A stretch of DNA of 19,735 bases, from positions 1 to 19,735 of the forward strand of contig RXOD01004633.1 in NCBI GenBank assembly GCA_005223375.1, read 5' to 3'. A model generated the notes under the pieces. It was not told where the DNA came from and ran no database searches. It saw nothing but the letters and a program-made list of their open reading frames with translations. This DNA is from Amoebophrya sp. AT5.2 (taxonomy: Eukaryota; Sar; Dinophyceae; Syndiniales; Amoebophryaceae). Both the position numbers and the translations under genes were made by a program. Shown in pieces: positions 3-19,735 of this stretch; within the stretch, counting starts at the first letter, position 1; each line of letters begins with the position of its first letter.

Positions 3-1346
3 GGGGGGGAGCCGCTCCCGGATCCGAACCGCGATCTGCTGAAGCGACGGTGTGTGGTGCCGAACAGCGGAGCGACGTCCGGCAAGTTCGAGAAAAAAGT
101 GGACCTGCCGGAGCCGTCTCCGACCTGGGTGCAGCGAAAGTTCCTTCGTTCCAGCAGCTTCCCGCGGGCGTTCCGGAACCGTCAGCTGAACCGGTACTGG
201 GAGAGAGCCAGGAACCGCAGCGGTGAGAAGTACAAGGCAAAGTTTGTGTTGGAGCCGAGCGCAGCAGGAACGACCCGAGAGAGCGCTGCCGAAGCCGGGG
301 CGGGCGTGCGAAGCGCGAAAACATGTGGAGCACTACTCGCCGCCGAAGATAGCGAGACGGGCGCAGTTCTTGGGGGAGGGGGCGCGGAAGGAGAAGGCAG
401 CGGTCTCAGAGCACCAGTCCGTGCTGCGTCTCGATCAGATTCAGGATCCTCAACCGACGACGACGGCGAGCAGAGTGAAGCGGGTCTGAGGGCACCGCAG
501 GGCGAAAACCTGGAGGTTAGTAGCACTAACAAGCGAAGAAGACCGGCCCCTAGAATACGGCCGGCGCTCGGCGGGCAAGAGCCGGTGTCGAGTCCCACGG
601 AGTTTGACGCAGCGGAATCCCCACTGGTGCTCGAATTTCGTCCGTCGCCAACGGAGAGCTTTCGAGAGCAGGGACGCGCGAATGACCTGCATCTGCCGTC
701 CGGAACGGCGCCCTCTGAGACGCGACAGGGAGATAGGGCCAGTGGCTCGTCTACCGCCGCAAAGTACCCGAGCAAGCTCCGCCGCGAAGAAAGCCGGGCA
801 CTCGATTCCGTGGCCGAGTCCGCGCTTGAGGACGCGCCGCAAACGCCGTTCGACGACAGCTGTGTCGACGATTCGAAGCGCCAGAAAAAGGCAGAGCCCC
901 CGGTGGGGCCTCCGCGTGGCGACGTCGTTGCAAAAGCCAGCAAGGGGGCCAGTGGGGTGCAGGGATGCAAACTCCACCTTTCCAATAAAGGAGATACAGA
1001 GCGGAACGAAGGTGCCCGTAGTGGAGGTCCGCCCGAAGACGCCGAATCTCCTGGCCATCGTGTTGTTGAAAAAGCAAAAAGCGATGGCGATGCAGAAGAT
1101 GACCAAGATCTCGATCCGGACTGGGACTCTCCCCCGCGAAGAACCCCCGAGCCGCACGACCAATCGATCAGTCTGTGGAACTTGATCGACCCTGCGCCCT
1201 ACTGTGTGGGACCGGACTTTCCGATACAGCGCATCTACCCCTTGTTCATATCTGCGCACCCAGTTCCGGCAGTAGTAGTCTTCGAACGGGGGCGATTGCG
1301 AGGCGTGCTGACGCGACGCCATCTTACGAACCTGTCACACGACTGA
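3..1346 (+). CDS. CLC-type chloride channel/transporter, C-terminal part with CBS domain (5' partial)
   Basis: The frame is open from base 3 to a TGA at 1344-1346 (447 codons) with no convincing start, so the 5' part and the membrane domain lie outside the window. The last ~62 codons (about 1158-1343) read as the second CBS domain of eukaryotic CLC proteins: SISLWNLIDPAPYCV, then IQRIYPLF, a hydrophobic PAVVVFERGRLRGV strand and the closing LTRRHLTNL, which matches the family pattern (I/L)TR(K/R)xL. In CLC proteins the paired cytosolic CBS domains bind nucleotides and modulate gating of Cl- channels or Cl-/H+ exchangers. The preceding ~370 codons are low-complexity, rich in Ser, Glu, Asp, Arg and Pro, and probably form a long disordered insert between CBS1 and CBS2; CBS1 is not visible here. 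The CBS call is firm. The CLC assignment rests on the DPxPYxV...ITRxxL signature and could be another CBS protein. Confidence 0.72.
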   Translation, partial: GGEPLPDPNRDLLKRRCVVPNSGATSGKFEKKVDLPEPSPTWVQRKFLRSSSFPRAFRNRQLNRYWERARNRSGEKYKAKFVLEPSAAGTTRESAAEAGAGVRSAKTCGALLAAEDSETGAVLGGGGAEGEGSGLRAPVRAASRSDSGSSTDDDGEQSEAGLRAPQGENLEVSSTNKRRRPAPRIRPALGGQEPVSSPTEFDAAESPLVLEFRPSPTESFREQGRANDLHLPSGTAPSETRQGDRASGSSTAAKYPSKLRREESRALDSVAESALEDAPQTPFDDSCVDDSKRQKKAEPPVGPPRGDVVAKASKGASGVQGCKLHLSNKGDTERNEGARSGGPPEDAESPGHRVVEKAKSDGDAEDDQDLDPDWDSPPRRTPEPHDQSISLWNLIDPAPYCVGPDFPIQRIYPLFISAHPVPAVVVFERGRLRGVLTRRHLTNLSHD

Positions 1347-2039
1347 CCGCGATTTGGCGACGTTCGATGGCCAGAAAGATCGCCTAGTACGCATTGTTCT
1401 GCCCCTGTCGGACAAGCGAGCTAAAGGAGTTTCTAACCTTCGGGTTTTTTTGATTTTGACAATGGATCAGATATACGCAAGGAAACGACTACCTTCTGTG
1501 AAATGCGAAATTTTTGCTTCCATCGGAAGCGAAAGAACTACGCAATAATAGCTATCGGGCAGATCAAAGTGCGGAATGAAAAAACAAATAGGTGGCCCCG
1601 ATTGATGTTCGTCACACTCGTCAGGAGTGTCGTCTCAACATCTTCTGCCGAAAGCATAATTGCAGCAAAAAAAAGAACGGACCGCCCTCTTTACGAATGA
1701 CGGGTTTGCGATTCTGTAGACCTCGTCTCTACTTCTGCACCAACTACATTTTTCGACATCATGCCTGCACGAGGTTGTAACTACACTGACACAAGAATTT
1801 TCTTTTCCTCCACAAAGCCGAGCTCTGCCCAGTGGAGTCTACCTCACCATCGTCCGCTATGCACGTCAACGCCTGTATACAACCTGAGTATCATCTACTT
1901 ACTTCAATACACCAGCTTCTCCCTCGTTCTGCTTGTCTTGTACATCTTTTACCCACGGTGATGGTCTTACTCGGAGCATTTGCCGCTTACTGGTACTCCT
2001 CATGCGCATGCTCGGCAGCAGATCTTCTTCGGGGGAGCA
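1347..2039. other. Intergenic spacer between the CBS/CLC gene and the orphan gene
   Basis: About 690 bp, visibly richer in A/T than its neighbours, with short T and A runs (for example 1445-1451 and 1668-1675). It should hold the 3' UTR of the upstream gene and the 5' UTR/promoter of the downstream one. Short open frames here have unremarkable composition and no motif. I see no RNA gene or clear repeat. Confidence 0.5.
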
Positions 2040-3071
2040 ATGGCGACGAAGATATGCCAGGCGGCGACGACACTGACGAGCAGCCAAGTGCAAGAGGTCC
2101 ACAGTTGGCTCACCACGGCGAGATGCAGGCATCTGCTGGTCGACAGGTTGGTGGCGACAGGATCCGAAAAGGACGCGGTTCTTACCAACGTCCTGGAGCA
2201 GATAAACATCAGCAGACTGAAACTACTCGGCTGCAGCACGCAGCTGCGGCGCGCAGCTAAGGGAAAAAACGTAAAGGCGACCCTGCGGAAGTTGTGCAGG
2301 ACGGTGCGGCGAGCAGCCCTGAACCACATCGCCCAGTGCGGATCGGGCAGGTCCCAAGCCATGCAGATGTGTAGCTGTCTGGGGCTCGACCCAGAGGACC
2401 GAGATGCGCGGCTGCAAGTGTTGAGGAGCGGAGCCTGCCCGGTGGCTGATCTTCGACTTCCCGCGGAGATTAGGAAGCGATTCTCGCTTCTCGCCCCCGG
2501 AGGAAGTGACCACCAAGAAACGCACGACGCGGTCATAAAACCCGACAGAGGGGGGGGAGCAACATGGTCCGCGGCAGGTCGCGTGATCAGATGCAGAGTG
2601 ACGGTCCCGGACGAAGACTGTCTCCCCTCCATGGTGGCAGCGCGGTATCAATATGCTCTCAGTGCGCTCCGGGTAGCGAAGAAGTCCGGCAAGCAAGGAA
2701 AAATTCTCATCGAAGGCTTCCCTGTCAACATGATCCGCAAGAGCCCTCTCATCCGGAGCGCAATACACGAACAATTCGCCGCAGGGGAAATGAAAGTAGT
2801 GCTCGCAGTCGAGAAACCGGCAGGACACCAGGACCAGGCGGACGACGACGCGCCCCTGCTCGAAGAAGAGCATACCCGATTCTTCCCCACGGCCTGGGAA
2901 GAAACATGGCCTCGAGACCCGGCGGGGGACGAATCCGATGAGGACGAGGAGGGATGGGCTGCGGAGTTGCAGAGCGAAATGCAGAATCCCGCGGTCCGAA
3001 AAAGCCTCAAGGCGGTGCAGGCCGAGTTCCGGAAGATCCGCGTCGGCGTAGCGGAGGAAGCGGAAACATGA
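2040..3071 (+). CDS. Uncharacterised protein, 343 aa, intronless, acidic C-terminal region
   Basis: An open frame runs from ATG 2040 (context gagcaATGG) to TGA 3069-3071. The same frame is open back to about 1980 but has no earlier ATG, so 2040 is preferred. I do not recognise the family. The N-terminal ~150 residues look helical with many Cys and basic residues (for example QVQEVHSWLTTARCRHLL and ATLRKLCRTVRRAALNHIAQ). A middle part has a strand/helix pattern (VIRCRVTVPDEDCLPSMVAA, GKILIEGFPVNMIRKSPLI). The C-terminal third is acidic (QADDDAPLLEEEH, DESDEDEEGW) and ends in a Lys/Glu/Arg-rich helix. No signal peptide or membrane segment is seen. The base composition is exon-like against A/T-rich flanks, and a mixed, charged composition supports real coding on this strand rather than its antisense. 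The function is unknown. It could be a decayed or lineage-specific gene. Confidence 0.55.
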   Translation: MATKICQAATTLTSSQVQEVHSWLTTARCRHLLVDRLVATGSEKDAVLTNVLEQINISRLKLLGCSTQLRRAAKGKNVKATLRKLCRTVRRAALNHIAQCGSGRSQAMQMCSCLGLDPEDRDARLQVLRSGACPVADLRLPAEIRKRFSLLAPGGSDHQETHDAVIKPDRGGGATWSAAGRVIRCRVTVPDEDCLPSMVAARYQYALSALRVAKKSGKQGKILIEGFPVNMIRKSPLIRSAIHEQFAAGEMKVVLAVEKPAGHQDQADDDAPLLEEEHTRFFPTAWEETWPRDPAGDESDEDEEGWAAELQSEMQNPAVRKSLKAVQAEFRKIRVGVAEEAET

Positions 3072-3342: not shown

Positions 3343-3648
3343 ATGTACAATACCAAGCTCCACGACCCGACAAAGGTATGTATGAAAGAAAGCTCAAACC
3401 AATACGCACAAAGTACAAAGAAAAAGAAATATGGGAGGTTTGAATTTGCTGTATTTGAAGAGTACATCGTTTCCCACGAATATCGAACGAGCGGCTCGAA
3501 CCAATACGCACAAAGTACAAAGAAAAAGAAATATGGGATGTCTGAATTTGCTGAATTTGAAGAGTACATCGTTTCCCACGAATATCGAACGAGCGCTGAT
3601 GTAAAAAACAAAGTGTTACGATTCAAAGCGTACGTATGTAAAAACTAA
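3343..3648 (+). CDS. Possible small repeat protein, 101 aa (doubtful)
   Basis: ATG at 3343 and TAA at 3646-3648 enclose the two 34-codon repeat units. The product would be Lys-, Tyr- and Glu-rich with no signal peptide or known domain. The frame stays open through both copies because the unit length is a multiple of three, so openness alone is weak support. The substitutions between copies are mainly non-synonymous. It lies in an A/T-rich spacer unlike the G/C-rich exons nearby. I list it because a transcript would settle it; I think non-coding is more likely. Confidence 0.2.
   Translation: MYNTKLHDPTKVCMKESSNQYAQSTKKKKYGRFEFAVFEEYIVSHEYRTSGSNQYAQSTKKKKYGMSEFAEFEEYIVSHEYRTSADVKNKVLRFKAYVCKN
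3394..3594. repeat. 102-bp tandem duplication (two copies)
   Basis: Copy 1 is 3394-3495 and copy 2 is 3496-3594 or slightly beyond. They differ at only a handful of bases. The unit is a multiple of three and sits in a 101-codon frame starting at ATG 3343 and ending at 3648, so it can be read as a 34-residue repeat starting SNQYAQSTKKKKYG and ending EEYIVSHEYRTS. Most differences between the copies would change amino acids (Arg-Phe to Met-Ser, Val to Glu), with one clearly silent. That argues against selection on a protein, so a non-coding minisatellite is the simpler reading. Confidence 0.85.
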
Positions 3649-4601: not shown

Positions 4602-7600
4602 ATGGGAAAGAAGAAGCACCACAAGAAGCACGAGGGCGCCGGCGCCGCCGAGGAATCCCCGAGCAAGGCTGAACCGGAAGCCGCTAGCGAGTCGCCGAGC
4701 AAGTCGCCGGAGAAGCGAGCAGGTGGGGACGCTGTGATCGAATTCGAGAATGCGGGCAAGAAGAGGGGCGTCGAGGTTTGGCGGATTGAGCACATGAGGG
4801 CGGTTCCGTGGATGGATCTCGGCCAGTTCTACTCCGGCGACAGTTACATCGTGCTGCACACCATGGACGTCAACAAAAAGTACGTAGGCTTGTTTCGCTG
4901 CAGTTTTGCGTTTGTTCAATTTTTCCGATGGATTTTTAGTTTTGTTTCGTCTCGAGCTCGAGCTCGACGTGTACCGCATCGCTTGAGGCATCATCTCTCT
5001 TTATCCACCCGTCTCCACCACCTCTCGCATCGACGACCATCACACCAGGTACGACCTTTTTTACTGGCTCGGCAAGGACTCCACGGTGGACGAGAAGGGT
5101 GCCTGCGCTCTGAAAACTGTCGAGCTCGATACGAAGCTGGGGGACGTGCCGGTGCAGTACCGGGAGACCGAGAACTATGAGTCCGGGCCGTTTATCGCAC
5201 TCTGGAAGCCTTTTGGCGGGATCCGGTACCTGGCCGGCGGCGCGGACTCCGCGTTCCGGCACGTGGAGCCCGCCGCGTACGAGACTCGACTGCTGCACGT
5301 GAAGGGCCGGCGCGCGGTGCGCGTTTCGCAGGTCGCGAAGAGCGCGAAGTCCATGAACGAGGGGGACGCGTTCGTGCTGGACGCGGGCCTGAAGATCTTC
5401 GTGTGGCGGGGCGCGGAGTGCAACCGGTACGAGTCGCAGAAGGCGTCCGAAGTCGCGCGCGCCATCAAGACGGAGCGAGGCGCGAAGCCGGAAATCTTCC
5501 TGCTGGACGCGGCGGCGCCGGACTCCGCCGAGTTCGCCGAGTTCTGGCAGGAGCTCGGGGGCGGGGGCGCGGCGGACGTCGCAGCCGCGGCGGAGGGCGG
5601 GAGCGACGAGATGTACGAACAGGTGTGCAGCTCCAAAATCAAATTGTACGAGATCGGGAAGGAGACGGGAGAACTGGCGGAGGTGGCCGGAGCGACGGTA
5701 CCGTTCGACAAGGCGGCGCTGAAGGGAAGCGGCGCTTTCGTCCTGGACAGCGGGGCAGCACAACCGGGACTGTTCGTGTGGCTGGGAAAAGAAACAGACG
5801 CGGAAGTGAAACGAAAAGCCATGGCGACCGCGGGAGAGTGGCTGGGAAAAGTGGGAAGACCGGACTACACAGGGATGTCGAGGGTACCGCCAATTTGGGA
5901 ACCAGTTGGATAAAATTTTTGCGCGTGTTGACGAGAAAGCTCGGATAGAGGAGGCGGAGATAGATGTGGCGCTAAGTGCAGTGAAGAAGCAGTATTGATT
6001 TCCAAGTACATTGTCAGACACGTAGACAGCGAGGTCGCGAGAATCTCTGGCGGTTGACGAAGCTAAATTTGAGGCCAATTTCAGGGGAAATCAATTTTGA
6101 AAAACGGGCTTCAACAGATGGACGCCGGGACCGAGACGGCCATGTTTAAGACCTTCTTCGCGCAGTTTGATCCACCAAAGATTCCCTCGACGCTGCAGGT
6201 CCAGCCGTCCGGTGCAGTCGCGCAGCAGCGGGAGAGCGAGGTAAGGTCGAGGATTTTGATGCTTTTGATGCAGTATCAGTATCACTCGCTATACTCAATG
6301 ATCCTCCGGCTCTGGAAACGAATCAAGCAGCCCCAACGGCACCTCTGAAGCGGATCGCATCAGAGGCCTTGCAAGCTCCTTGACCGAGCGGGCCGCTGCA
6401 GCAAGTCGCCGAGAAAACCGAGAGGCGCCTGGTCGGCGCTGCTCCCGGTCGTGGCGCTGCATAGCTACCGCGATTTTGAGGCTCTTGCAGTACGCCCCGG
6501 GTCCTCCAAAGCCTCTCGAAGTTCCTACTTTTGCGATCTTTCGCGCGCTTGCTTCCCAGACGCGAGTCCATCTAAAGGGCAAAGAAACGGCTTCGAATTG
6601 GCCGCAGGCGCTGCGCTCTTGTGGGTTTTCTTGTTCCGGGGCCACTCGGCACGCCTGGCGTCTTTCCCTTTGTGCGCCACTGGCAGCAGATCCGCAGCCG
6701 ACCGCGCTGGAGGAGGCTCGCCCGAACTTGGGGAGCCTTTTTGTTTCCTGCTCGTATCCTCCAGCTATCGCCAGACGACTGGTCGTCGCGCGCGTTGGTT
6801 GGCGCTCTTCTGCAGAAGGAGCCTGCCTAGCTGCTTGCTTGGGGACCATCCCAGCCCATGAAGTCGGGCGACAGGGGCGGCGTGCTCTGGATCGATGACA
6901 AGCCCCAGCGCCCGTGAGCCCCAGGAGCTCGCCGGCGAAGATCTGCCCGAGGATGTTCGCCGCGTGTTTGTTTTGGTCAAGCCACTGCGTGGCAGCTTTT
7001 GCCGGCGCGTTGGACTGCGGCCAGTGGATCCCTTTGCGCTCCCTGCTCAGCAATAATAACAGGAGCCGGATCTTCGCCATCGTTTCGGGAGCCGCGTCCT
7101 CGTAGACGGAGGCACGGGGGAGCTGCTTTGCGAGCTCCTCCGAGTCGATGCCTATCACCTCTTTGCGCTCCTGCCGGTCCAGCGCGGCCTGTTTCTTTCT
7201 CTCTATTCAAGTCCCCAGTGCTGGAAGCTTTCCCAGCAACGTCGACAGTGCCGCGTCCCCCGTAGCTAGCTCCGTCCCCCCTCCACGGTATCCGCCACGC
7301 TCGGCGGGAGGTCGCCCCTGGGCCACGCGGGAAACTCAACGCCTTGGGTGTTTTTGTCCAGGTCCTCGAACGCCTTCGGGTCTGCCGGTCCCCACCCCCC
7401 CGACCGCGCGCGGCGTGCCTCGACTTTACCGAGGAAGGAGCGGAACTGCTGCGCGCCACTTGCCTCGATGAGTGGGCTCTGAAGCTGGATGGGCTCGAGG
7501 GCGGCCCCCGGATGCACCCGGTCGCGCCAGGGGATCAGCGAAGTGTTGGGTGTCTCGTTTTGCATCGCCTCCCGCATGATCATCGTCAGGAACAGGAAGT

Positions 7601-10600
7601 AGTCGGCGGCCCCCGCCCGATACCACTCAGGCCGGAAGCGGAGTATGTTCCTCGACTCGACGGGGCAGGGGTCCGCTCTCTTGAGGGACTCGTAGAACCG
7701 CCCCCGCCCCGATTCCTTCATCCATTTCGCGGCCGGAGGCGGGCAATCAGGCGCCACCTCTTTGTCGAGGAATTTCGCGCCGAACTTGTCCCGCTCCTTC
7801 TTCACGTCGTCGAGTTTTTGCCCCAGTTCCGACTAGGCCGGCATCTCCCGGAAAAAGAAACCAGCGCACTCGATAGCTTTTTGCTGCTGGTTGTTCCAGT
7901 CGCGCGGATCGCGGAGCAGCTTCTGGCTAAAGACGCGACGCGTGATGGGTCAGACGTTGCGCACTGCTGCTTTTTGGTCCAGTCGCGCGGATCTCGGGGC
8001 AGCTTCTGGCTAATGACGCGACGCGTGATGGGTCAGACGTTGCGCACTTCCTGCCAAGCAAGAGTCTGCACCACCACCCCGGCGGACAGGTCGCTCCTCT
8101 CGGACTGGCCATGTGGTCCCTTTCCTTTGTCGAGCTGGTACATGGTTCCGGCGCATGGTCTCGCTCGGCGCTTGTTGCCTCCACCTTCGTCGTCACCTCT
8201 TTGCCCCCCTTCCCGTTCCCAGTCGACCGCGTGGAGCTGGGCGCGTCGTTCGTAACTGCGAGGAAGCACAGGCAGCAGCTTCAGCGTGAAACTACTGCCC
8301 CGCATGGGCTCCAGTGCATGCGGTGCGACCCATTCTCAACGCGCAGCATGCACCGACGCCACTTCCGTCGTTTTCTGGGCCGTCTTGTTGCCGAGATGCT
8401 GCCGATTCGCCGACGCGGAGGAGGCTCAGGCGCGCCGCCGTTCTCTCTTCGCACGCAGTCGCCAGGGAAGTTCTCGAGCTGTGCCAGGTAGTAGTCGCGC
8501 TCTTCGTAGAGTAGTTCCCGACGCGTCTTCATCGGTGTGGGCATCCCCTGCTGCGGCCGACGTCGTTGAAGGGCTTGAAGGCTTTGCCGACTCCCTTGCC
8601 GGTTCCGGTGCTGTTGAAGGGGTTGAAGGCTTCGCCGACTCCCTTGCCGGTTCCGGTGCTTCTGCTCTGCTGCGGCGCTGGAGCGCTCCGGGGGCGAGTT
8701 GCGGCGGGCTTTGGGGGGGTCAAGGGTCATGGGCGCCTTGCCCCCCCCCCTTTTTCGTGTGAATTGCAAGGCGATACCCAAAAAAAAATCGTTCCCGTTT
8801 CCGGTCCCGTTTCCGTGATAATCGTACAGAAAAGCCAAAAAATCGGCCCCGTTTCCGTGATAATCACACAGAAAAGCCAGGACCGTCTCCGCGCCATCCT
8901 GTCGCGACAACTTACCAAGCAGGGCAAGGGAATGCCTGCGCTCCGAGTGCGTTCCGATGGCTTTCCGCGAGGGGCTTGCCTCGAAGTTTCCGTCGCGGTA
9001 GGTGCGCGCGGCCCGCGGCGGGCGCAGTGACGCCAGTCGTGGCGGCTGTTTCTTTCGCTCCCGCAGTCATGTCTGTGACAACGGCGGCGCCATCACTGGG
9101 GAGCTCCCTGGCATCGGCGTCCGTCGGCTTGTGCTGCTTCTCTTCCGCCTGGATGGAGCTAAGGAAGGTAAGCAGGCCGACCAACACGGAATCGCAGCCC
9201 TGGCGGGCCGACCACTGGCGGCCAGCCCGGTTGGCCAACTTATTGGCGTGGCGGCTTTTGGGCTCTTGCGTGTTGGCTGGCGGCAGCTTTTCACCTGGGA
9301 CCGCCGGGCTGTGCTTGTATGTGTGAGGACGCTGCGCAAGGCTTGGGGCTGGCGAGCTTGCAGCACGCGCAAAAGAAAGGCGCGCACCCAGCGGCTTGGC
9401 GATCGCTTCTCTACGGCAGCGCGGGCGTTTATGCCCCGCTGCATAAAAGGCCGAAAGTGGTCGAGGCTTTTCCAGCGGGCACCCTCTTCGTTTTGCTTAT
9501 CTTTCCGAGGTGCGCGCCGAAATCGTCGCCGGTCTTGTACTCCGGGCGCCGATGCCCTTGCAGCAGGAACGTCGGCAGTTCTGCTCTGGGCCCCGGTTCG
9601 CCCCTGAGGGCCTTCGGTATATCTTGCACCACCGACGAGAGGGCGGGGGAGCTGCTCGCTGCTGTTTTGTATTCGGCTGCAATGAATGCGACAGCCGCCG
9701 GCCGTGCTCAAAACGGGGGCAGGCCAATCCGTACCAAGCTCGTCGCTTTCCTTAAGCTGCCCTGTGCTTTCAGGGCTTGGCTGCGAGCCTTCAAGTTCTC
9801 CTTCAAGACCGGACTGGTCGAGTAGGGAAGGGAACTCCTCCGCACCACGGTAAGACGGCGATCGGCGCCAGCCGGTATCCTCTCAGGGAGGCGGGACCTA
9901 TGTTCTGCTTGAGCGTATGCATGGCACGCGCCTGGTAGCGCGTCGCCGAGACTACTTGGACACCGCTCGGCCCCCAGGAAAGCCGCCAGGCGGCCGCGTT
10001 TCGCGCCGCCGCCGGATCTTGCTGCGCGACAGCCTTGCCGGGCGTTCTCCTGTGCGTGACTGCTGCGGGGGTTTCCCATCATCGCCGTGGCCTGAGTTGG
10101 CCGGAAACTCAGCCAGGGCCGGCGCCTTTGGAGGTCCAGCGGGAAGACGCGGGCGTCGTGTGCTGGACATTCAAACCGGAGACGAGGGAAATGGCCGGCC
10201 CTGGCGCCGCTGGCGCGTATTATCTCGGAGGCCCAAACCTTAAGCCTGAAACTCTTCGCCCTAGCCCCTAAACCGTTGACCCTATACCCTAAACCTGGGC
10301 GGGGTGTGTCTGGCTTCCTTGCGCACGTCATTGATTTGCGGGGACAGCGTCGCCCGCTCGTGATTTTGCGCGCTTGCCAGCTTCGTCCTCTCGTGGAATC
10401 GTGCGGCCGCCAACGTCTTGCCCTCGTGGTTTCGTGTTCGTCTCTGTTTCGTGCGTCCGGCCTTTCCGTGGGCTCGCGCATCTTCTCAGAGGCTTCGCGC
10501 AGCGTTTGGCCCGTCGTGGTGGTCTTTGGTGTGCCATCCGTGCGCCCGGGCGAGCAGGCTGCTCGGCAATTTGCTACCATGTGCATCGTCCTCGCAATAT

Positions 10601-13600
10601 TTCGGCTGCGGGTCCTCATAGTGCAAGGCGGTCCGGCTGCTTTTTTTCGGCAGTCGTTTCCGCTACTTGCTTGGGCATAAGGATGAGCGCCGGGGGGGTG
10701 TGGGGCGCAGCTGGCTTCGCGGCCGGAGGTCCCGCGCGGCTGGTGATCGGTGTTGGCGCCCGTGTTCTCCAGTCCAGTACTCGCGCCCGGGCTGCCTCCA
10801 GGATTGACAGCACCAGCGTCCATCTCGTCATCCGGGCGCTTCTCCTCAAAGACCACGCCCAGCCCGTCACTCGTCGACAGGTCGTCAGCCGCGTCCTCAT
10901 TCGTGATGGGACGGCGGGCCGCAACCTCGAAGAGGCCCGGGCTCTGGTTGATAATCTGACAGGCAACAGCGAGGGCACAGCTTTCCACCTGCGCGATCGG
11001 CGCGTAGTACGTGCCCAGCTTGGTCTTGGGGCGTCCTCCAGACCTCCCATTCCCACACTTCTTTTCCCGTACCTCCTTCGCCCGAACGAAATCTCTCCGG
11101 CGGGTGCCATTGAGACTCGTTCAGCCCTTTCAAACGGTTCTGGATGTGCTTGGCGTTGGTGCCGCTACCGCTGCCCAAAAACCCCGCGAGCAAGTTCTTC
11201 ACTTTCTCCGCCGTAATCTCGTCGCACTCCTCGTTGCAATGCTTGATCGCCCGCTTTAAGAGGGCGCTTTTCATCCCCGCAAGAGTCACCGCTGCCAGCT
11301 CTGCCAACGTCCAAGACGTGCCGTCATCTACCGCCGTCAAGGGGCCGAGCGCCTGACTGCGGAGCTTCGGCTGCGGCGGAGCGTGTTACGGTTAGCAAGC
11401 CTGGGGAATCGGCCCCCGGCCTCGCTGAGTACGAGCGCAGCGAGGCCTTCCACTGGATCGCGCACAACGTTAAGCCGGCCCAGCCGGTGGAGCAGGTGCG
11501 CCGTCGTCGGGGTCCTCTCACTCCTGTCCCGACTCCGGGGCCTCATGCTGCTCCATTTTGCACGGCCAAAACAATGGGCGCCAAGTGTCGGACTCCTCCG
11601 GCGCGCGGTCGCTCGTGCGCCACGCCGTAGACGGGGCGCGGCAGCTCAAGAAATAGACCGCCAGACTTCACCCGCATCCTCTTCCCGGTGGGCCCCGCTT
11701 CCAGCTGGCAAGCGATGCCCCCGACCTGCATCACGGGGCCACTCAGCAGATCACGTCCCGCGATCTTCTCACGGATCAGCCTCCCTTGGTCTGATCGGTG
11801 GGAGTTGAAGGCGTGCGACATCGGCCCGAGCACTTTCGCGCTGCAAAGCTTGCACGCTTGCGCCCCGCTCTCCTTCCCGACCTGCCGCGTTGTGGTTCCC
11901 TTGCAGTGCCTAACGTGGCGCCGCATATCCTGCAGGGAGTCCAGACTGCGCAAACGGCACGCGTAGCGTACGCATTTACTTGCCTGACTGTCGCGGGTTT
12001 CTACTCTGGAGCCAGCTCGCGCGTACATGTACAAAGTGCGCGACTTGTCCGGCGGGGGGCCGCCTTTGCCGTGGGTGGCAACGAACGCGCCGAGTTTTGC
12101 CCCCGCTGCCCGGCCCATCTACCCAAGTCGTGTCGGCGCCGCACGTCGTCACCGCTCCCATTTTCCTCGCGTCGGCGGAGGTCACCCGAGTCCGGGCCCA
12201 GCGGCATTCCCGGGGCAAGCGGGTATGCGTGCCGATTCTGCACCACCAGCGGGCACCTTTAGCCTGCTGCGAGGAAAGACTGTCCGCCGACTTCCGCCGC
12301 TTTCGGTCTCCTTCTTTCCTTTGAAAGGGCGGCCACGACTGCCCGGGAATAGAAACCCCAAGCGCCACCGGATGAGATGACGGACCTCACTTGTGGCGTG
12401 GTTACAGCCGGGGGGAAGTTCGTTGACGGGGTGAGTGCTTGCCCGGACTTGTTCGCGGATGCGGCCAGCTGTATGAAGTCGCTGCGAATGGACGCCGTGG
12501 AGGCTTTTCGGGGCCTTTGGAGCATCCAGATCGCGCAAGCGTTTCGTTTTCGCTGGATCGTTGTGCCACAGGCTGAAGAGAGCAAGACCGACGCGGCCCG
12601 CAAATTAATGATCCCGCCCACCCCGTTCGACTCGCGCCCGTCCCTCCTTCCGGCTTGTTCTTGTCTTGCAGCTCCTCCGCGCGTTAGAGCTGCACCAAAC
12701 AGACACCCCGCGGCCGCGCTGTTCATAATATAGCTGCAAGCACCAAACCCAAAGCAGGACGAGCGTCGAGAGCAGAAAGGTCCGCGCGCGATCGGCTCGA
12801 CGCTATCGCGCAAAGAAAGGCCGGCAATATCTCCGGGGGCGGGCGCGCACTCGTGTGACGGCACTCCCACACACCATCAGACGACTCAGCGCCAGCTTCC
12901 TCTTCCCCTGTATTGCGCCAATTTGCCCCCCTGTACTCGCGGAGCACATCGGGCGGGGTGGAGGTAATTGAGTCGGTCCTTTTCGGCGTTCTTCCCCGTG
13001 CCCGTCTTGTGAGTCGGCGCCTCCTTCTTGGTCTTGTTCGCATTGTTTTACCAGTTGGGGCCTCGCTCCAAAACCCTGGCCAGGAGCTTGGCCGCCTCGA
13101 GGGCGTCCGTCGTGGTCCCGAATTCGACGCAGTTGCGAAAGTCGGCGATCGCCTCCTGGATAGGCGTTCGGCAACCCGCTCGAGCGCGCTCTCGTTTTTG
13201 CGTAGCGCAGTCCTGAAGCGCGTCAAGAGGTCCTGCAGCTTTTCTAAGCGCCACACCTCCGACGCCGCGAGCGGCCGCATTTTAGGACTGCGATCGCGTT
13301 CGCGGCAAAGTTTTCCGCCCACTCTTCGCTGGCCTCGTCCGCCACCTCCGTCAAAGCCGCCGCGTTGGATTGCAAGGCGCTGAGCAGGTTTCCACAGACC
13401 CCGTTGGGCGTGGCGCGCATAAACTTGCGCGGGTTCGCTTCAATGGCGTCCATGAGCTTGCTCGGCCGCGAGGCGATCCAACCTCTTGTAGAGTTCGATG
13501 CCTACGCGGCGGCGGTAGTCTTGTGGGTTCTCGTAGAACTTCTCCCAGTAGGAGGCGGCGAAAGCAGAAAGGTCCGCGCGCGATCGGCAGGAAGGAACAG

Positions 13601-16600
13601 AACCGCGCCTGAGCGGTTCGCGCGTTTCGCGTGCCGGGTGCTGATCGCCAGGGGGCGCGGCTCTTTCTTAGTTCCAGGACCCCGATACGCTTGGAGCGCA
13701 GGGCGCGCGGCGAGTCAGGGCCCTCGGCATCGCAGTGCCCACGTAACTGGCTAAGGTGGCTGGTACTCATTGCGAGATAGCGGCCACCGGCGGGCGGCCC
13801 TCTCATCCAGTCGGCGGGCGGCCCGAAGTTTTGCAGTACACTGCGCGCCCGGAGTTCTGTGCGCTCGGTCGTGACTTTGCTGCTTAGTTAGTACTTAGGT
13901 GGGCTCGGTCGTGACTTTACTGCTTAGTTAGTACTTAGTTCTCCACCAGCCACGGCAGCGCCTCGGCGAACCCGGTCCCGGGCGGTATTCCGCCCTTACG
14001 TTCTTCCGCTCCAAGGCGAATCCCTCAGGGAAGTCGGTGCCCGCGCGTCTTCGCTCATGGTCCGCGCCCCGCCGGGCAGAAAAATGGCCCGCGGGCTGCT
14101 GGCTGGGCTTCGTGTTGTTTTTGCTCCGTTTCTGCAGCATTTGAATGCCCCGCCTTTGCGGCGTTTGTTTTGAGGGGGCTTGCGGCTTTCGCGAATCCCC
14201 CCCTGGACTGAGCGCGCGCGTGCAACAGCTGCCGCGCTTTTGCGTTGGGAGGGCTTCTGCCTGGCGCATTTCGTTCGCGCTCGATGAAAGCAAGGAAGGC
14301 GACGCCGCGGCGCCTATCTTTCTTTGGGCGATCTAACGCGTTGCAAATGCCACCCGAAGTTAAACGCACGCGAACAAACTAAAGAAACGGGGCCCCGGAA
14401 ACGCAAGGCAACAATCTAACTCACCGCCCCAGGTCTCCATCGCGAACATGCACAAGACGAGTGGGGAGCGCCGCAAGTCTGTGCCTGCTGTCCAGCGAGA
14501 CCCACTGCGGGAGGCTGTCAAGATCTGGCGCATCGAGAAGTTCGACGCGGTCGAAACTCCTGCGGACTCCTACGGGCAGTTCTTTTCGGGGGACAGCTAC
14601 ATCGTTGAGTACGTGTATCGCGCGGACAACGGAAAGATCGAGGAGGCGCTTTTGTATTTTTGGCAGGGGGAGGACTCAACGGCGGACGAGAAAGGAAGTT
14701 CGGCTATCCTGTGCGCAAAGTTCGACTCGGAGCGGTTTGGCGGGCAGGCGACCCAGGTCCGAGTCGTGCAGGGGAAGGAGCCGAGCAACTTCCTGCGCCT
14801 TTTTCAGGGAAAAATGGTGCTGCACCAGGGAGGCTGCGACAGCGGTAGAACCTTAAGCAACCCAAGCCTTATACTTGATGTTCCGAGGACGGAAGTCCCC
14901 ACAGCATAAACTCCCGCAACTTGATGTTGCTGCGCAAGTAGAGCCCACACTCACTCATGTACCTCGAAAACTCGATAAGCATTCCTCTGAAGAGACACCC
15001 GTAGTACAGCACAGGGCAGAAGTGCACTATTGTCGGGTCAATGTAGCTGGGAGCCATTTTAGCCTCGCAAAGGGGTAGAAATAGGTGCTGAAAAACACAA
15101 AGTGTGTATACTCGACCTTGAGTCAACAGTAGCATTAAGCATCAGCAACGCGAATATACGAACTGCGAGGACTTCTAACCTCGGCCCGCAACACAGGTTT
15201 TCGCAGCACTCGTGCTGATTCCACCACTTCTTCCACCACCGCCGACGCCGACGCGTATCCGAAGCTGTACCACATTCGCGGGTTCTCTTTGTCGGAGTGC
15301 AAGGCGACCCAGGTTGCGTGCGAGGCCCAGAACTTGAACTCGAATGACGTGCTCGTGCTCTTTCCGTCCGAGAGCGAGCCTGCCTTCGTCTGGCAGGGCG
15401 CCGGCGCCAGTAAGGACGAGCTCGAGCTGGGATCTCACCTCGCGAAAACCCTCGCCACCACCTCGGACGTCGGAAGTGCGGCGAAGGTCATCACCGAGAA
15501 GTCCGAGCCCGACGAGTTCTGGGGCTACTTCAAAACCGGCAAGCAGGAGTACGCTTCGGACCCTGTGCTCGCCGACCCGGACTTCGCACCACGGCTGTTT
15601 CAGGTCTCGAACGCGAGCGGGGCGCTGCGGGTGGAGGAAGCGTTCCAATTTACGCAGGAAGACCTGATTGAGGAAGATGTGATGCTGCTCGACTGCTACT
15701 CGGCGGTCTACGTGTGGGTCGGCGACGGCGCGCACGAGCAGGAGAAGAACGAGGCGCCGAAGATCGCCGAACAGTATATCGAGAGCTCGCCGGACAGGCG
15801 GCTGGTGGAAGACACGCCCATCGTGATCGTGAAAGCGGGAAACGAGCCGCTGCTCTTCACCTGCCACTTCGTCGGATGGGACGCCTCAAAGAGAAAAGGT
15901 TAGCGGCCCGATGATCGATGATTAGAACTGAAGTAAATACAGTGGGTAAGATGGGTACGAGTGAACAGTAACGAGATACTTAAAGCTCACAAGAAGATCA
16001 CTGATGGCTGGAATCTAGACATTGCGACGTGCAGAACTGATTCTGAAATGAACAAAACTAGCACTGCGCAAAGCTGTAAAGAAAGCAGTTGTATTTACGA
16101 AGTATGAAGGTCTAGCTCTAGATCACTTTATTTGGTCCACGGACAGGCTTCGCCGACCTGTACGAGGAGAAGCAGAAGAAGCGGAATTCTGTGCTGCAGG
16201 CGGAGAAGGAAGCTGACGAGAAGGCCCTTGCGGACGAGGACGCGAAACGCGCCTCGAAGGCGCTCGAGATGGAGCAGAAGCGGGAGTCGGAAAAGCGACA
16301 GAAGCAGCAGGAGGCCGAAGAGAAGAAAAAGGCAGAGGAGGGCACCGCGTTCGGCAGGAAGAGCGTGATTAAGGGAGAGGCTGGAGCAGATTCAGCGAAA
16401 TTGAACGAGGACGGCGTGAAGACAACGAAGAGCAAGGAGTCCAATCCCCAGGACGCCAACCGAAGCACCCGGGACTCGACGAAAGAGAATGACGAAAAGG
16501 AGAGAAGTACAGTCACGGGCGGCGTGGCGCCGTCGCCAGGAAGCCCGAGCAGCCTCCGGAGGCCGTCTGTGAAAGGTAAGTGAGTACATTGCTGTGTGTT

Positions 16601-17255
16601 TTGGAACAAATATAGGTACGGTCGTGGCAATCAGGTGCTGTAGTTGCTGCTTCAGGTGCTCCTATGTTTCTACTCCCGCATTGATATTATTTCACTCTGC
16701 CCATTTCGCACCACGCCCGTAGGTCGTCGAAGCTCGGTAACTCGGTGCTGTGTCGGCGGCGGCGGCTCTTCGGATAACTCAGCCTCGGATGATCTGCTTC
16801 ACGAGGGCCCCACAAGTCAGGCCAGCTCCAAGGACACCGCCATGACGACGACCACCTCAACCTCAGCCTCATCAAACAAACCTACGAAACTCCCAGGCGC
16901 CAACGGTCGATGGAGCACGGTGGAAACGGGCGGCTACATCGGCTTCGCGAGCACCGGCGTGGTCCGGAAATCGCAGCTGGAGGCGGAGGAAGCGCTGAAT
17001 AAGTCCGTGGGAAGCAGCGCGGGAGGAGGAAAGGGAACAAAGGAAGAACCGACGTACGCGTGCCCCCGCTCCACGAAGTACTCGTTGGTGGAACTAAGCG
17101 ATGGCAAACGGCCAGAGGACGTGGACCCGACCAAAAAGGAGCACTACCTGGCAGCGGACGAGTTTCACACCGTCTTCGCCATGCACGTGGACGAGTGGGA
17201 CAAGCTACCCGTCTGGAAGCGCACGCAAAAAAAGAAGGACAAGGGGCTGTTCTGA
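4602..17255 (+). CDS. Villin/gelsolin family actin-binding protein, six gelsolin domains plus villin headpiece, seven exons
   Basis: My join is 4602-4879, 5049-5883, 6118-6240, 14433-14844, 15197-15898, 16147-16575, 16723-17255, giving 1103 aa. All junctions are GT-AG and phase-consistent. The start is ATG 4602 (gccgaaaATGG). Residues 1-45 are a Lys/His- and Ser/Glu-rich tail. G1 is ~46-155 (EVWRIEH, GQFYSGDSYIVLH, FYWLGKDSTVDEKG), G2 ~166-262, G3 ~285-395 (GTETAMFKTFFAQF), G4 ~440-545 (VKIWRIEKF, SYGQFFSGDSYIV, VVQGKEPSNFLRLF), G5 ~571-662 and G6 ~680-777 (VMLLDCYSAVYVWVGDGA). Residues ~785-1040 are a Lys/Glu coiled coil then a disordered Ser/Thr/Gly region. Residues 1044-1103 are a villin headpiece ending KKKDKGLF. 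The family severs, caps and bundles actin under Ca2+ and phosphoinositide control, and the headpiece adds an F-actin site. The ATG at 14448 could alternatively start a separate G4-headpiece gene, but exon 3 (GAG|) and exon 4 (|GTC) join in phase and the linker resembles gelsolin. Confidence 0.88.
4880..5048 (+). other. Villin intron 1 (169 bp)
   Basis: The donor is aaaaa|gtacgt and the acceptor caccag|gtacga, in phase 2. Splicing restores the G1 core DVNKKYDLFYWLGKDS across the junction, which is the family pattern of a strand followed by FYWLG. The five bases gtacg are repeated at both ends of the intron. Confidence 0.92.
5884..6117 (+). other. Villin intron 2 (234 bp)
   Basis: The donor is tcgagg|gtaccg and the acceptor caacag|atggac, in phase 0. 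Without splicing the frame stops at 5911-5913. With splicing G3 reads TGMSRMDAGTETAMFKTFF, aligning gap-free with the end of a canonical gelsolin G3 (T...G.ET..FK.FF). This makes the early stop an intron feature rather than the gene end. Confidence 0.92.
6295..7158 (-). pseudogene. Decayed antisense coding segment, 3'-most (unknown family)
   Basis: On the minus strand one frame is open from 7158 to a stop at 6295. Its first ~90 codons look like real protein: MIGIDSEELAKQLPRASVYE, ETMAKIRLLLLLLSRERKG, QWLDQNKHAANILGQIFAG. After about 6900 the same frame turns Arg/Ala/Ser-rich, while another frame (about 6900-6765) becomes protein-like (ALGLVIDPEHAAPVARLHGL, WSPSKQLGRLLLQKSANQ). This is the pattern of a coding sequence that suffered indels. 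No domain is recognised. The stop at 6295-6297 may mark the end of the former gene, about 55 bases inside the villin intron. Confidence 0.5.
7266..8305 (-). pseudogene. Decayed antisense coding segment with in-frame stops and an 83-bp duplication (unknown family)
   Basis: Read on the minus strand, 8305-8036 ends LDKGKGPHGQSERSDLSAG, VVVQTLAWQEVRNV and then a TGA. After the 83-bp duplication the reading resumes as SQKLLRDPRDWNNQQQKAIE, CAGFFFREMPA, a TAG near 7833, then SELGQKLDDVKKERDKFGAK and a well-formed 180-codon stretch down to 7266 (RFYESLKRADPCPVESRNIL, YFLFLTMIMREAMQNE, GAQQFRSFLGKVEARRARSG). The segment is helical and charged, like a structural or nucleic-acid-associated protein, but shows no known motif. 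If the duplication is discounted, the two halves are in one frame. That supports a single ancestral ORF inactivated by duplication and stops. Confidence 0.55.
7882..8047. repeat. 83-bp tandem duplication (two copies)
   Basis: Copy 1 is 7882-7964 and copy 2 is 7965-8047, with only a few mismatches (for example gttgttccag against tttttggtccag near the start). The unit is not a multiple of three, so it shifts the antisense frame that encodes RDPRDW in each copy. The duplication therefore post-dates loss of function or caused it. Confidence 0.9.
8565..8660. repeat. 48-bp tandem duplication (two copies)
   Basis: Copies are 8565-8612 and 8613-8660, starting gttgaaggg(c/g)ttgaaggct. The unit is a multiple of three, so in the antisense direction each copy can be read as the 16-residue phrase STGTGKGVG(E/K)AF(N/K)PFN. 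Confidence 0.92.
8806..8880. repeat. 42-bp direct repeat (two copies)
   Basis: The phrase cccgtttccgtgataatc followed by acagaaaagcca occurs at about 8806-8837 and 8848-8880. A further cccgtttccgg precedes the first copy at about 8794. In the antisense frame this gives two FLAFL(C/Y)DYHGNG phrases. Confidence 0.88.
8912..9840 (-). pseudogene. Decayed antisense coding segment (unknown family)
   Basis: Minus-strand reading from about 9840 gives an acidic stretch (FPSLLDQSGLEGELEGSQPS then GQLKESDELGTDWPAPVLST). It must change frame near 9690 to continue as VVQDIPKALRGEPGPRAELP, RRPEYKTGDDFGAHLGKISK and VPAGKASTTFGLL (to about 9440). After another frame change, 9238-8912 reads CDSVLVGLLTFLSSIQAEEK and DARELPSDGAAVVTDMTAGA. 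Each piece has a balanced protein-like composition, but none lasts more than ~70-110 codons. That is what a frameshifted pseudogene looks like. No domain is recognised. Confidence 0.45.
9708..11546 (-). pseudogene. Decayed antisense coding segment, 426- and 147-codon frames (unknown family)
   Basis: A minus-strand frame from 11340 is clearly protein-like: TAVDDGTSWTLAELAAVTLA, GMKSALLKRAIKHCNEECDE, TAEKVKNLLAGFLGSGSGTN, AKHIQNRLKGLNESQWHPPE. At about 11060 it degrades, and another frame takes over with CALAVACQIINQSPGLFEVA, RRPITNEDAADDLSTSDGLG, VVFEEKRPDDEMDAGA. That 426-codon frame stays open to 9708, but most of it (about 10700-9850) is Arg/Ser/Pro-rich and spans the telomere-like array at 10231-10295, so I do not believe it is one real exon. 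Upstream, 11546-11324 holds further frameshifted pieces. The short helical phrases are suggestive, but there is no named fold. Confidence 0.45.
10231..10295 (-). repeat. Degenerate interstitial telomere-like array, CCCTAAA/TTTAGGG type
   Basis: From 10231 the sequence divides into nine consecutive heptads in one register: gcccaaa, ccttaag, cctgaaa, ctcttcg, ccctagc, ccctaaa, ccgttga, ccctata, ccctaaa, followed by cc. Two are exact CCCTAAA and most others match at 4-6 of 7 positions. TTTAGGG is the telomere repeat of plants, many algae and several alveolates including dinoflagellates. The register over 63 bases makes chance unlikely. The G-rich strand is the minus strand. Confidence 0.7.
11543..12246 (-). 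pseudogene. Decayed antisense coding segment with two C2H2/C2HC zinc-finger-like motifs
   Basis: In the minus-strand frame 12118-11543, residues 49-72 read CVRYACRLRSLD...MRRHVRHC (C-x4-C-x13-H-x2-H-C). Residues 89-107 read CKLCSAKVLG...HAFNSH (C-x2-C-x9-H-x4-H). Both lie at 11798-11974 and resemble zinc-binding fingers. They are followed by GRLIREKIAGRDLLSGPVMQ and SGGLFLELPRPVYGV. Just upstream another frame gives MVQNRHAYPLAPGMPLGPDS (about 12246-12187), which looks like the preceding part displaced by a frameshift. This suggests nucleic-acid binding in the ancestral protein. Spacing is non-standard and no named family fits. Confidence 0.4.
12771..12796. repeat. 26-bp exact dispersed repeat, copy A
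   Basis: Identical over 26 bases (beginning agcagaaaggtccgcgcgcg) to 13563-13588, with both flanks diverging at once. In the antisense direction both copies can be read RADLSA. Confidence 0.9.
13563..13588. repeat. 26-bp exact dispersed repeat, copy B
   Basis: Partner of 12771-12796, 792 bases away. It sits directly before the antisense phrase FAASYWEKFYENPQDYRRR. A match of this length inside 8 kb suggests a duplication or a shared motif in the dead element. Confidence 0.9.
13863..13938. repeat. 40-bp tandem duplication (two copies)
   Basis: Copies are 13863-13902 and 13903-13938, starting gctcggtcgtgactttgctg, with one mismatch over the shared 36 bases. Each contains ttagttagtacttag, which puts stops in the antisense frames and separates the decayed segments on either side. 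Confidence 0.92.
13935..14369 (-). pseudogene. Decayed antisense coding segment, 5'-most (possible former gene start)
   Basis: An ATG at 14369 (minus) opens a 104-codon frame (MRLTSGGICNALDRPKKDRR, GVAFLAFIERERNAPG). Later pieces in other frames include TDFPEGFALERKNV and a closing GTGFAEALPWLVEN that ends at a TAA on 13935-13937. If the chain is one element, this is its upstream end, about 60 bases from the villin exon 4 acceptor. Whether this short ORF belonged to the same protein as the next segment is not clear, since the 40-bp tandem repeat lies between them. Confidence 0.4.
14845..15196 (+). other. Villin intron 4 (352 bp)
   Basis: The donor is acagcg|gtagaa and the acceptor acacag|gttttc, in phase 1, between G4 (ending QGKMVLHQGGCDS) and the G4-G5 linker (GFRSTRADSTTSS). 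The intron is A/T-richer than the exons. An 88-codon antisense frame inside it (15135-14869) has no recognisable motif. Confidence 0.88.
15899..16146 (+). other. Villin intron 5 (248 bp)
   Basis: The donor is agaaaag|gttagc and the acceptor ggacag|gcttcg, in phase 1. It removes an in-frame TAG at 15901-15903 and joins the end of G6 (HFVGWDASKRKG) to FADLYEEKQKKRN, the usual W..........Y/DL pattern after the last gelsolin domain. Confidence 0.88.
16576..16722 (+). other. Villin intron 6 (147 bp)
   Basis: The donor is tgaaag|gtaagt, the most consensus-like in the window. The acceptor is cccgtag|gtcgtc, in phase 1. It joins the charged linker (SSLRRPSVKG) to RRSSVTRCC, leading to the headpiece exon. 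Alternative acceptors slightly upstream cannot be excluded because the linker is not conserved. Confidence 0.8.
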
Positions 17256-18779: not shown

Positions 18780-19735
18780 ATGGGTTGCGGAGCATCCAAG
18801 GCTGAAGCGGGGGCCGCTGCGCCCAGCGCCGCCCCGAAGCCGGTGAACAGGAACGACCCCAACTATCCGCCCATGGGTCTGGCGCCCACCGTCCAGGGCC
18901 TCCCCGACTGGATCAAGCTCGGCTGCGGCGACGTTGCGTACATTTGCGAAGAGAAGGGCGCCACCTTCCCCGGTGACAAGTGCCCGGACAAGCTCCCCGA
19001 TCTGTCCAAGCACGGAAACCTTTGCGCCATGGCGCTGCGCGAGCACCCGGAAATCTACGAAAAGTATATTTTATCGGACTCTGAAAAAAAAATCACATTG
19101 CTATGGTTTGTGCTGTGGGAGGCCGCTTCTAAACAACCGACCGTGAGGTTGTGCGGTTTGGGAAGTGGCCGCATCCTGTATTCTCGTACAGGTCCCCTGC
19201 TGTCTTTTCATGTGCCTGTGGTCTTTCATTTTTAGGAGGAATTTGAGGATCTGTCCTCGGTTGCCTTTAATGTTCGGCATTCGTTTTTCCAGGTACAAGA
19301 ACGTGAAGACGAAGGGCGGCGTCTCCCTGGCGAATTGCATCAAGACGGGTATCGACAACCCCGGACACCCGCACATCCTGACCTGCGGTCTGGTTGCCGG
19401 TGACGAAGAGTGCTTCACCACCTTCAAAGACCTGTTCGACATCGTCGTCGGAAAGCGCAACGGCGACTACGCGCCCGATGCGGTCCACAGTACCGACATG
19501 GATATCAACAAGCTGAGCACCACGAAGATCGACCCCACCGGAAAATACTGTATTTTTCCAACGAGTTGAAATTCTTTATTTTCTCGATTGGGTCAAAGGC
19601 AGTATCTATACTTACAACTTTTCACTCTGCAACTTACAACGAAGAGGAAGGCGGTTCGGAGGTCAGGCCGATTTGTCTTTTAAGCTCGCGCTATCTGAAC
19701 GTGTTCACAGGCCTGACTACCCGCTGCCGCACCGG
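18780..19735 (+). CDS. Phosphagen (guanidino) kinase, N-terminal part, probably N-acylated (3' partial)
   Basis: My join is 18780-19063, 19293-19549, 19711->19735, running off the window. The family reversibly moves phosphate from ATP to a guanidino compound (arginine, creatine, taurocyamine and others), buffering ATP in flagella or muscle. The N-terminus MGCGASKA fits N-myristoylation at Gly2 with palmitoylation at Cys3, known in some protist arginine kinases. Residues ~63-95 carry FPGDKCPDKLPDLSKHGNL and EHPEIYEKY. Exon 2 has KGGVSLANCIKTGIDNPGHP (~102-121), GLVAGDEECFTTFKDLFDIV (127-146) and HSTDMDINKL. Exon 3 begins the catalytic domain with LTTRCRT, the usual (S/T)(S/T)R.R motif. The specificity loop (KTKGGVSL) is not the typical arginine kinase S/GVGIYAPD, so the substrate cannot be named. 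ATG context is cagcaaaATGGG. Confident family call. Confidence 0.93.
19064..19292 (+). other. Phosphagen kinase intron 1 (229 bp)
   Basis: The donor is cgaaaa|gtatat and the acceptor ttccag|gtacaa, in phase 2. It restores EIYEKYKNVKTKGGV across the junction. Its boundary resembles villin intron 1 (…aaaa|gta and …cag|gtac). Confidence 0.92.
19550..19710 (+). other. Phosphagen kinase intron 2 (161 bp)
   Basis: The donor is aatact|gtattt and the acceptor ttcacag|gcctga, in phase 1. It joins DPTGKY to CLTTRCRT, the start of the catalytic domain. Unspliced reading stops at 19567-19569. Confidence 0.88.

Follow-up and report, generated by a model that had tools for sequence, protein, structure and literature searches.

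The stretch analyzed here, referred to below as the window, is an entire contig (C837; RXOD01004633.1) of 19,735 bp from a 50.7-Mb assembly of Amoebophrya sp. AT5.2 in 2,759 contigs. It carries a villin gene on the plus strand (4602-17255), whose seven exons encode 1,103 residues and whose third intron, 8,192 bp long, contains the DNA with which we are mainly concerned; the nearest named relatives in a protein search came from Amoebophrya sp. A120 (58% identity) and A25 (57%). Exon 1 (4602-4879, start codon at 4602) agrees with A120, A25, and a public gene model, as does the donor of exon 2 (5049-5883), which we placed at 5884 (earlier 5905). Exon 3 (6118-6240) encodes the end of the G1-G3 half and the start of a linker, as judged from the sequence and the alignment with A120 and A25. 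Exon 4 (14433-14844) encodes G4 and exon 5 (15197-15898) encodes G5-G6, both from the Pfam scan and the translation, while exon 6 (16147-16575) translates into a charged linker. A Pfam scan of exons 2, 4, 5, and 7 found gelsolin repeats (PF00626) in the first three and, in exon 7 (16723-17255, stop codon at 17253-17255), a C-terminal villin headpiece (PF02209; E value, 6.5e-14). The solved villin 9jus aligned with residues 59-786 of a six-domain query (E value, 1.2e-138; the 791-residue query included seven residues beyond the final exon 2 end), and the villin and gelsolin alignment together with the repeats in exons 2, 4, and 5 gives the protein a two-triplet, six-domain architecture.

In order, the introns measure 169, 234, 8,192, 352, 248, and 147 bp. 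The long intron (6241-14432, plus strand) has the donor GAG/GTAAGG at 6241 and the acceptor CCCCAG/GTC at 14432, is in phase 0 on both sides, and keeps the reading frame over the junction, as a spliceosomal GT-AG intron does. The residues that meet there, ESE/VSIANM, are continuous in the aligned proteins of both relatives (ESE-VSIANM in A120, GSE-VSVADM in A25), and this contiguity of the flanks supports one gene with one intron. We infer that 6241-14432 is spliced out in vivo. A first reading made from the letters of the DNA alone (the sequence-only reading) had proposed an 8.2-kb intron in a villin gene, located exactly between the two gelsolin triplets, rich in G+C like the exons, and far longer than the other introns of 147 to 352 bp. 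The splice sites, the phase, and the continuous A120 and A25 proteins confirm the intron itself; its position is right in the sense that it lies in the linker between G3 and G4, with 28 exon 4 residues preceding the G4 motif VKIWRIE; and its G+C richness also stands (G+C content [GC] of 0.63 versus 0.42 to 0.50 in the five other villin introns, the latter computed before the exon 2 end was shifted). According to Table 1 of PMC7789003, AT5 introns have a mean length of 337 bp, a median of 228 bp, a maximum of 3,556 bp, and 49.4% GC, and the longest introns listed there are 90,415 bp for A25 and 35,152 bp for A120, so that a length of 8.2 kb is exceptional against the listed AT5 introns and not for the genus. 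The genome-wide GC in that table is 55.92% for AT5, versus 52 to 60% in nine host samples; an AT value of 54.5 printed for AT5 in PMC12005148 conflicts with it.

In EukProt the gene is divided between two models. Model g6580.t1 corresponds to exons 1 to 3 (98% identity, with the seven extra residues in the query), and model g6584.t1, beyond its first 19 residues, is identical to the window at 633 of 633 positions; the donor of the former and the acceptor of the latter are those of the 8,192-bp intron. Both models also take an exon from inside the intron: g6580.t1 has its last exon at 6855-6917 (plus strand; tail MKSGDRGGVLWIDDKPQRP at 6858), and g6584.t1 has, by the model alignment, its first coding exon, of 19 residues, at 14057-14113 (plus strand). 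These two exons are probably spurious, and neither has a counterpart in the A120 or A25 proteins. The model numbers leave space for three models between g6580 and g6584. We favor a single intron because the coding edges are conserved and because this separate annotation used the same splice sites; on the simplest view, a gene finder could not span so long an intron and split a single gene there. Apart from this, g6584.t1 omits 58 residues encoded at the start of exon 7 (16725-16898), which are matched in part by A120 and A25.

The DNA that fills the intron, here called the insert, carries a broken coding signal on the minus strand, antisense to villin. In a frameshift-tolerant scan of 6301-14400, run with a codon model derived from 12 long reading frames of host contigs, the minus strand scored 55.4 and the plus strand 0. 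Minus-strand scores in 25 local dinucleotide shuffles did not exceed 3.3; the reversed sequence scored 0.9, the complemented sequence 0, and three host stretches taken as non-coding 0. The signal consists of 12 segments in four blocks, covers 43% of the scanned DNA, and switches frame 8 times. Block 1 (6922-8513) has four segments in different frames and 4 stops, block 2 (9050-9826) two segments and 1 stop, block 3 (10761-11375) two segments in different frames, and block 4 (13066-13579) four short segments in changing frames; all are read on the minus strand as probable decayed coding DNA. In total, 5 stops occur in 1,159 codons, within 4 of the 12 segments; read in the two other minus frames, this DNA gives 26 and 29 stops, and in the three plus frames 12 to 25. 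Since the scan penalizes stops, the low count in the segments is no independent evidence. The intron contains tandem duplications whose units measure 40, 48, and 83 bp; the 83-bp duplication (7882-8048) lies in block 1 and has one frame change within it, and 83 is not divisible by three. If the assembled bases are right, the 8 frame switches and 5 stops leave no intact open reading frame (ORF) such as a nested gene should have.

A measure that uses no codon model also registers the insert. Its mean period-3 strength was 2.19, whereas 200 local base shuffles averaged 1.00 (standard deviation, 0.11; maximum, 1.28) and exons 2 and 5 of villin averaged 9.16. Values above 4 were reached in 9 of 66 windows of the insert and in 10 of 11 windows of these exons, but in 0 of 19 windows from two stretches of intergenic DNA. 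GC in 500-bp windows is constant at 0.60 to 0.67 throughout 6501-14250. The longest ORFs per window ran to 191 to 470 codons in 25 windows of the insert, and the lowest values among GC-rich host windows were 201 to 248 codons (loci L012 and L011), in a survey of nine 10-kb samples in which 100 of 297 overlapping 2-kb windows had a GC of at least 0.58; because these ranges overlap, ORF length alone does not distinguish the insert. From the frameshift-tolerant scan and the period-3 strength together, the insert most likely consists of GC-rich genes that lie antisense to villin and are far advanced in decay.

Searches for the source of the insert found little. Five DNA queries covering 6300-14420 (two at an E value of 0.001 and three at 1, with common words skipped) matched the assembly in only one other place, 79 bp on contig C2238 (8751-8829) that are 77% alike to 9893-9965 of the window (minus strand; 67% over 27 aligned positions in a minus frame). 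The assembly searched holds 50.7 Mb, with 10,487 bp the smallest contig seen, and AT5 is reported at 87.7 Mb, so copies may have been missed. A protein query derived from C2238 matched, at an E value of 1, C2238 and this window only. The wider C2238 stretch (7740-9750) is GC-rich, with few open frames, a scan score of 2.2, and a period-3 strength of 1.82, and is preceded by a coding-like stretch on the plus strand (7350-7738); with little coding signal and about 70 bp confidently shared, we rejected it as a clear second copy, and it is possibly a second intronic remnant. In a protein search of the contigs, four pieces of the insert matched themselves; two further matches at a loose limit (E values of 1.02 and 3.48) were judged to be chance, the better spanning 31 residues of a charged region at 45%. 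For the open piece at 7269-7832 (minus strand), none of 174 candidates of similar length matched at an E value of 10 or better. Ten open pieces gave a best E value of 0.2 against Pfam, and a search of six read-through frames against Pfam and of three minus frames against PHROGs and NCBIfam gave a best of 0.12. These scans found no transposase, reverse transcriptase, integrase, or other hallmark gene, although decay may hide one. A viral or phage origin was considered and rejected: PHROGs yielded one match in the three minus frames (E value, 0.12), four scans of viral contigs with four pieces turned up 10, 10, 2, and 8 stretches with pattern matches, of which none was confirmed, and one protein search among phage records found no relative of the insert. 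The predicted structures of two open pieces had a mean predicted local distance difference test score (pLDDT) of 43.7 and 40.2. Rfam and transfer RNA scans returned nothing, and a relict spliced-leader tag, such as a dinoflagellate retrogene would carry, was absent from the window at the thresholds used (at most 3 mismatches to the 21-nt motif, or at most 2 to 13 nt of it).

The insert also contains a degenerate telomere-like (CCCTAAA)n tract of 56 bp (10238-10293, plus strand). Aligned to the repeat, it scores 45; the highest score was 19 among 30 local base shuffles of the insert and 21 among twelve loci that had been picked for other reasons (three belong to C2238). A coarser test (14 nt, up to 3 mismatches) gave 3 matches in the window, a number equalled by 14 of 200 shuffles. 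Four further contigs carry CCCTAAA tracts, which on C430 and C463 are close to the contig end and in C30 are internal. At the C30 site (near 29373; L027, 1485-1533), two CCCTAAA units stand between 16-bp direct repeats (TTGACTCAGGCGGCAA) beside a coding-like stretch, an arrangement that looks like an insertion of telomere repeats whose flanks were duplicated. At the end of C430 (25397-25730; L020), telomere-type units in both orientations lie within about 330 bp.

At both ends of the intron, short stretches on the plus strand are closer in composition to the other introns. The 5' stretch (6241-6302; log-odds, 8.3) is suggestive and may be a remnant of the original intron; the 3' stretch (14331-14432), only weakly nearer to the other introns, ends in the CAG acceptor and includes a CTAAC stretch, which we take to be branch-site-like. 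This edge composition is compatible with a block set inside a short intron and is no proof of it. Just beyond the donor (6246-6382), another plus frame reads VEDFDAFDAVSVSLAILNDPPALETNQAAPTAPLKRIASEALQAP and then stops; it looks protein-like by eye and is unsupported.

Taken together, we put the probability at roughly 55% that the window holds one villin gene with one ordinarily spliced 8.2-kb intron, filled by inserted and decayed antisense gene DNA. Some 8 kb of GC-rich DNA with one or several genes antisense to villin would have entered an ordinary intron, a few hundred base pairs long, and, free of selection, would have decayed as frameshifts and stops accumulated and short tandem duplications arose. 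Because villin depends on the splice signals at the two edges, these would have been retained, and the whole intron would be removed by ordinary GT-AG splicing. The sequence-only reading had described a foreign-looking element inserted into a formerly normal intron. The first part of that description is not upheld: the element reads as decayed minus-strand coding DNA, its codon use is host-like (itself weak evidence), and its type of telomere-like tract is found elsewhere in the genome. The second part is supported to the extent that DNA was presumably added, by insertion, to what had been an ordinary intron.

Several observations weigh against this reading. No target duplication of at least 8 nt was found near the insert edges, and the remnants of the original intron are weakly marked, chiefly on the right (log-odds, 2.2). 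The intron, at 8,192 bp, is far longer than the longest listed for AT5 (3,556 bp). The intergenic stretches have period-3 strengths of 1.31 and 1.78, so the mean of the insert is only modestly higher. The derivation of the insert from the host genome, and not from outside, is the weakest step. Synonymous codon use of the segments correlates with that of the host at an r of 0.947 (villin itself, 0.941), a value that is partly circular, as the segments were chosen with the host codon model; unselected frames reach an r of up to 0.903 in the segments and 0.883 to 0.913 over the whole insert. After this control, we rejected codon use as proof of host origin. The dinucleotide distance from host coding DNA is 0.069 to 0.090 in five overlapping 4-kb pieces of the insert, compared with 0.026 to 0.068 in 34 of 36 host pieces and 0.085 and 0.126 in the other two; the signature thus lies slightly outside most host pieces, and the insert could have another source.

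An assembly error would explain the same locus without any insertion: the intron flanks might have been joined around unrelated sequence, for example from the algal host, or uncorrected long reads might have been used to fill a gap, the frameshifts then being sequencing errors. The insert is GC-rich, is found once in the assembly apart from about 70 bp, departs slightly from the host dinucleotide signature, and has a coding signal interrupted by frame switches every few hundred base pairs, all of which such an error could produce. We nevertheless regard it as unlikely, since the contig is single and continuous with no N in the sequence shown, the adjacent villin exons are free of frame breaks at a GC of up to 71%, and a chimera would need both breakpoints in the same intron with both splice signals intact. 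Another possibility, which we consider rather less probable, is fission of the gene, with the halves now separate genes like g6580.t1 and g6584.t1 and other genes between them. It would account for the division of the public models at this point, for a numbering that fits three models in between, and for an in-frame ATG after the first 5 codons of exon 4, but each half-model includes an exon from the insert that neither A120 nor A25 has, and the junction is conserved on both sides, with GT-AG retained in phase 0.

That the minus-strand signal belongs to one or more working genes nested in the intron is improbable to a still greater degree. The scan and the period-3 signal agree with such genes, and Polarella glacialis offers a precedent with full-length transcript support (PMC7245778); the frame switches, however, occur with no AT-rich introns between the segments (GC stays at 0.60 to 0.67 throughout 6501-14250), 5 stops fall inside the segments, and neither the one protein search nor the family searches produced a relative. 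Growth of the intron in place through small duplications, with no inserted block, would fit the tandem duplications, yet these explain a few hundred base pairs at most, and an organized minus-strand coding signal is not expected from slippage; we think this the least probable of the explanations. Beyond our preferred reading of a decayed antisense insert, it may be imagined, as a conjecture to which we give low credence, that the insert represents a single decayed copy of an undescribed multi-gene element bearing a telomere motif, which settles antisense in introns of Amoebophrya-like parasites and has left a second remnant on C2238, also antisense to an upstream exon-like stretch.

The remainder of the window contains other genes and repeats. 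At 3-1343 (plus strand), a frame open at the contig start ends in a CBS-like domain (PF00571) that scores 19.5 bits, under the curated cutoff of 24 bits. It is followed at 1962-3068 (plus strand) by a 369-residue open frame with no Pfam match at an E value of 0.01. A 102-bp unit in two tandem copies, 96% alike, occupies 3392-3595 in AT-richer DNA between two genes. The start of a phosphagen kinase gene (18780-19735, plus strand; PF02807 in 19294-19542) is truncated by the contig end.

These results suggest that automated annotation has halved a conserved cytoskeletal gene and added exons taken from decayed DNA. They also suggest that a compact parasite genome, with a longest listed intron of 3.6 kb, has at least one gene with an intron over twice that length. 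If such introns were common, strain-specific genes and gene losses in Amoebophrya would be overcounted. The insert could also serve as a test case for the question of whether GC-rich stretches in these genomes are graveyards of lineage-specific genes.

A limited literature search found no paper on villin in Amoebophrya, a statement that we do not extend to the wider literature. The general kind of event seen here is known, and this instance is probably an ordinary one of unusual size. According to PMC7245778, 8.4% and 6.5% of the predicted genes of two P. glacialis isolates lie inside introns; as in that dinoflagellate, coding DNA is found within the intron of another gene, whereas the coding DNA in the villin intron is broken and belongs to no recognized family. 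Amoebophrya A25 and A120 have introner elements that likewise add DNA to introns within the same genus. Their non-canonical introns, as described in PMC7789003, have mean lengths of 120 nt in A25 and 240 nt in A120, and inverted repeats together with direct repeats are present in about 11% and 30% of them, respectively. The villin intron differs in being 8.2 kb long, GT-AG, and free of such repeats: the window contains no inverted repeat of at least 20 nt, the edge regions compared with each other share merely scattered matches of 9 to 10 nt, and the terminal inverted and direct repeats of an introner were not found, although very short or diverged repeats would escape detection. The telomere-like tract recalls interstitial telomeric sequences in its position away from chromosome ends and departs from those described in PMC7215372 in being 56 bp long, degenerate, and set amid a much larger insert. 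By length alone, the closest parallels to the villin intron are the long introns tabulated for A25 (90,415 bp) and A120 (35,152 bp) in PMC7789003, which show that introns of at least 8 kb occur within the genus.

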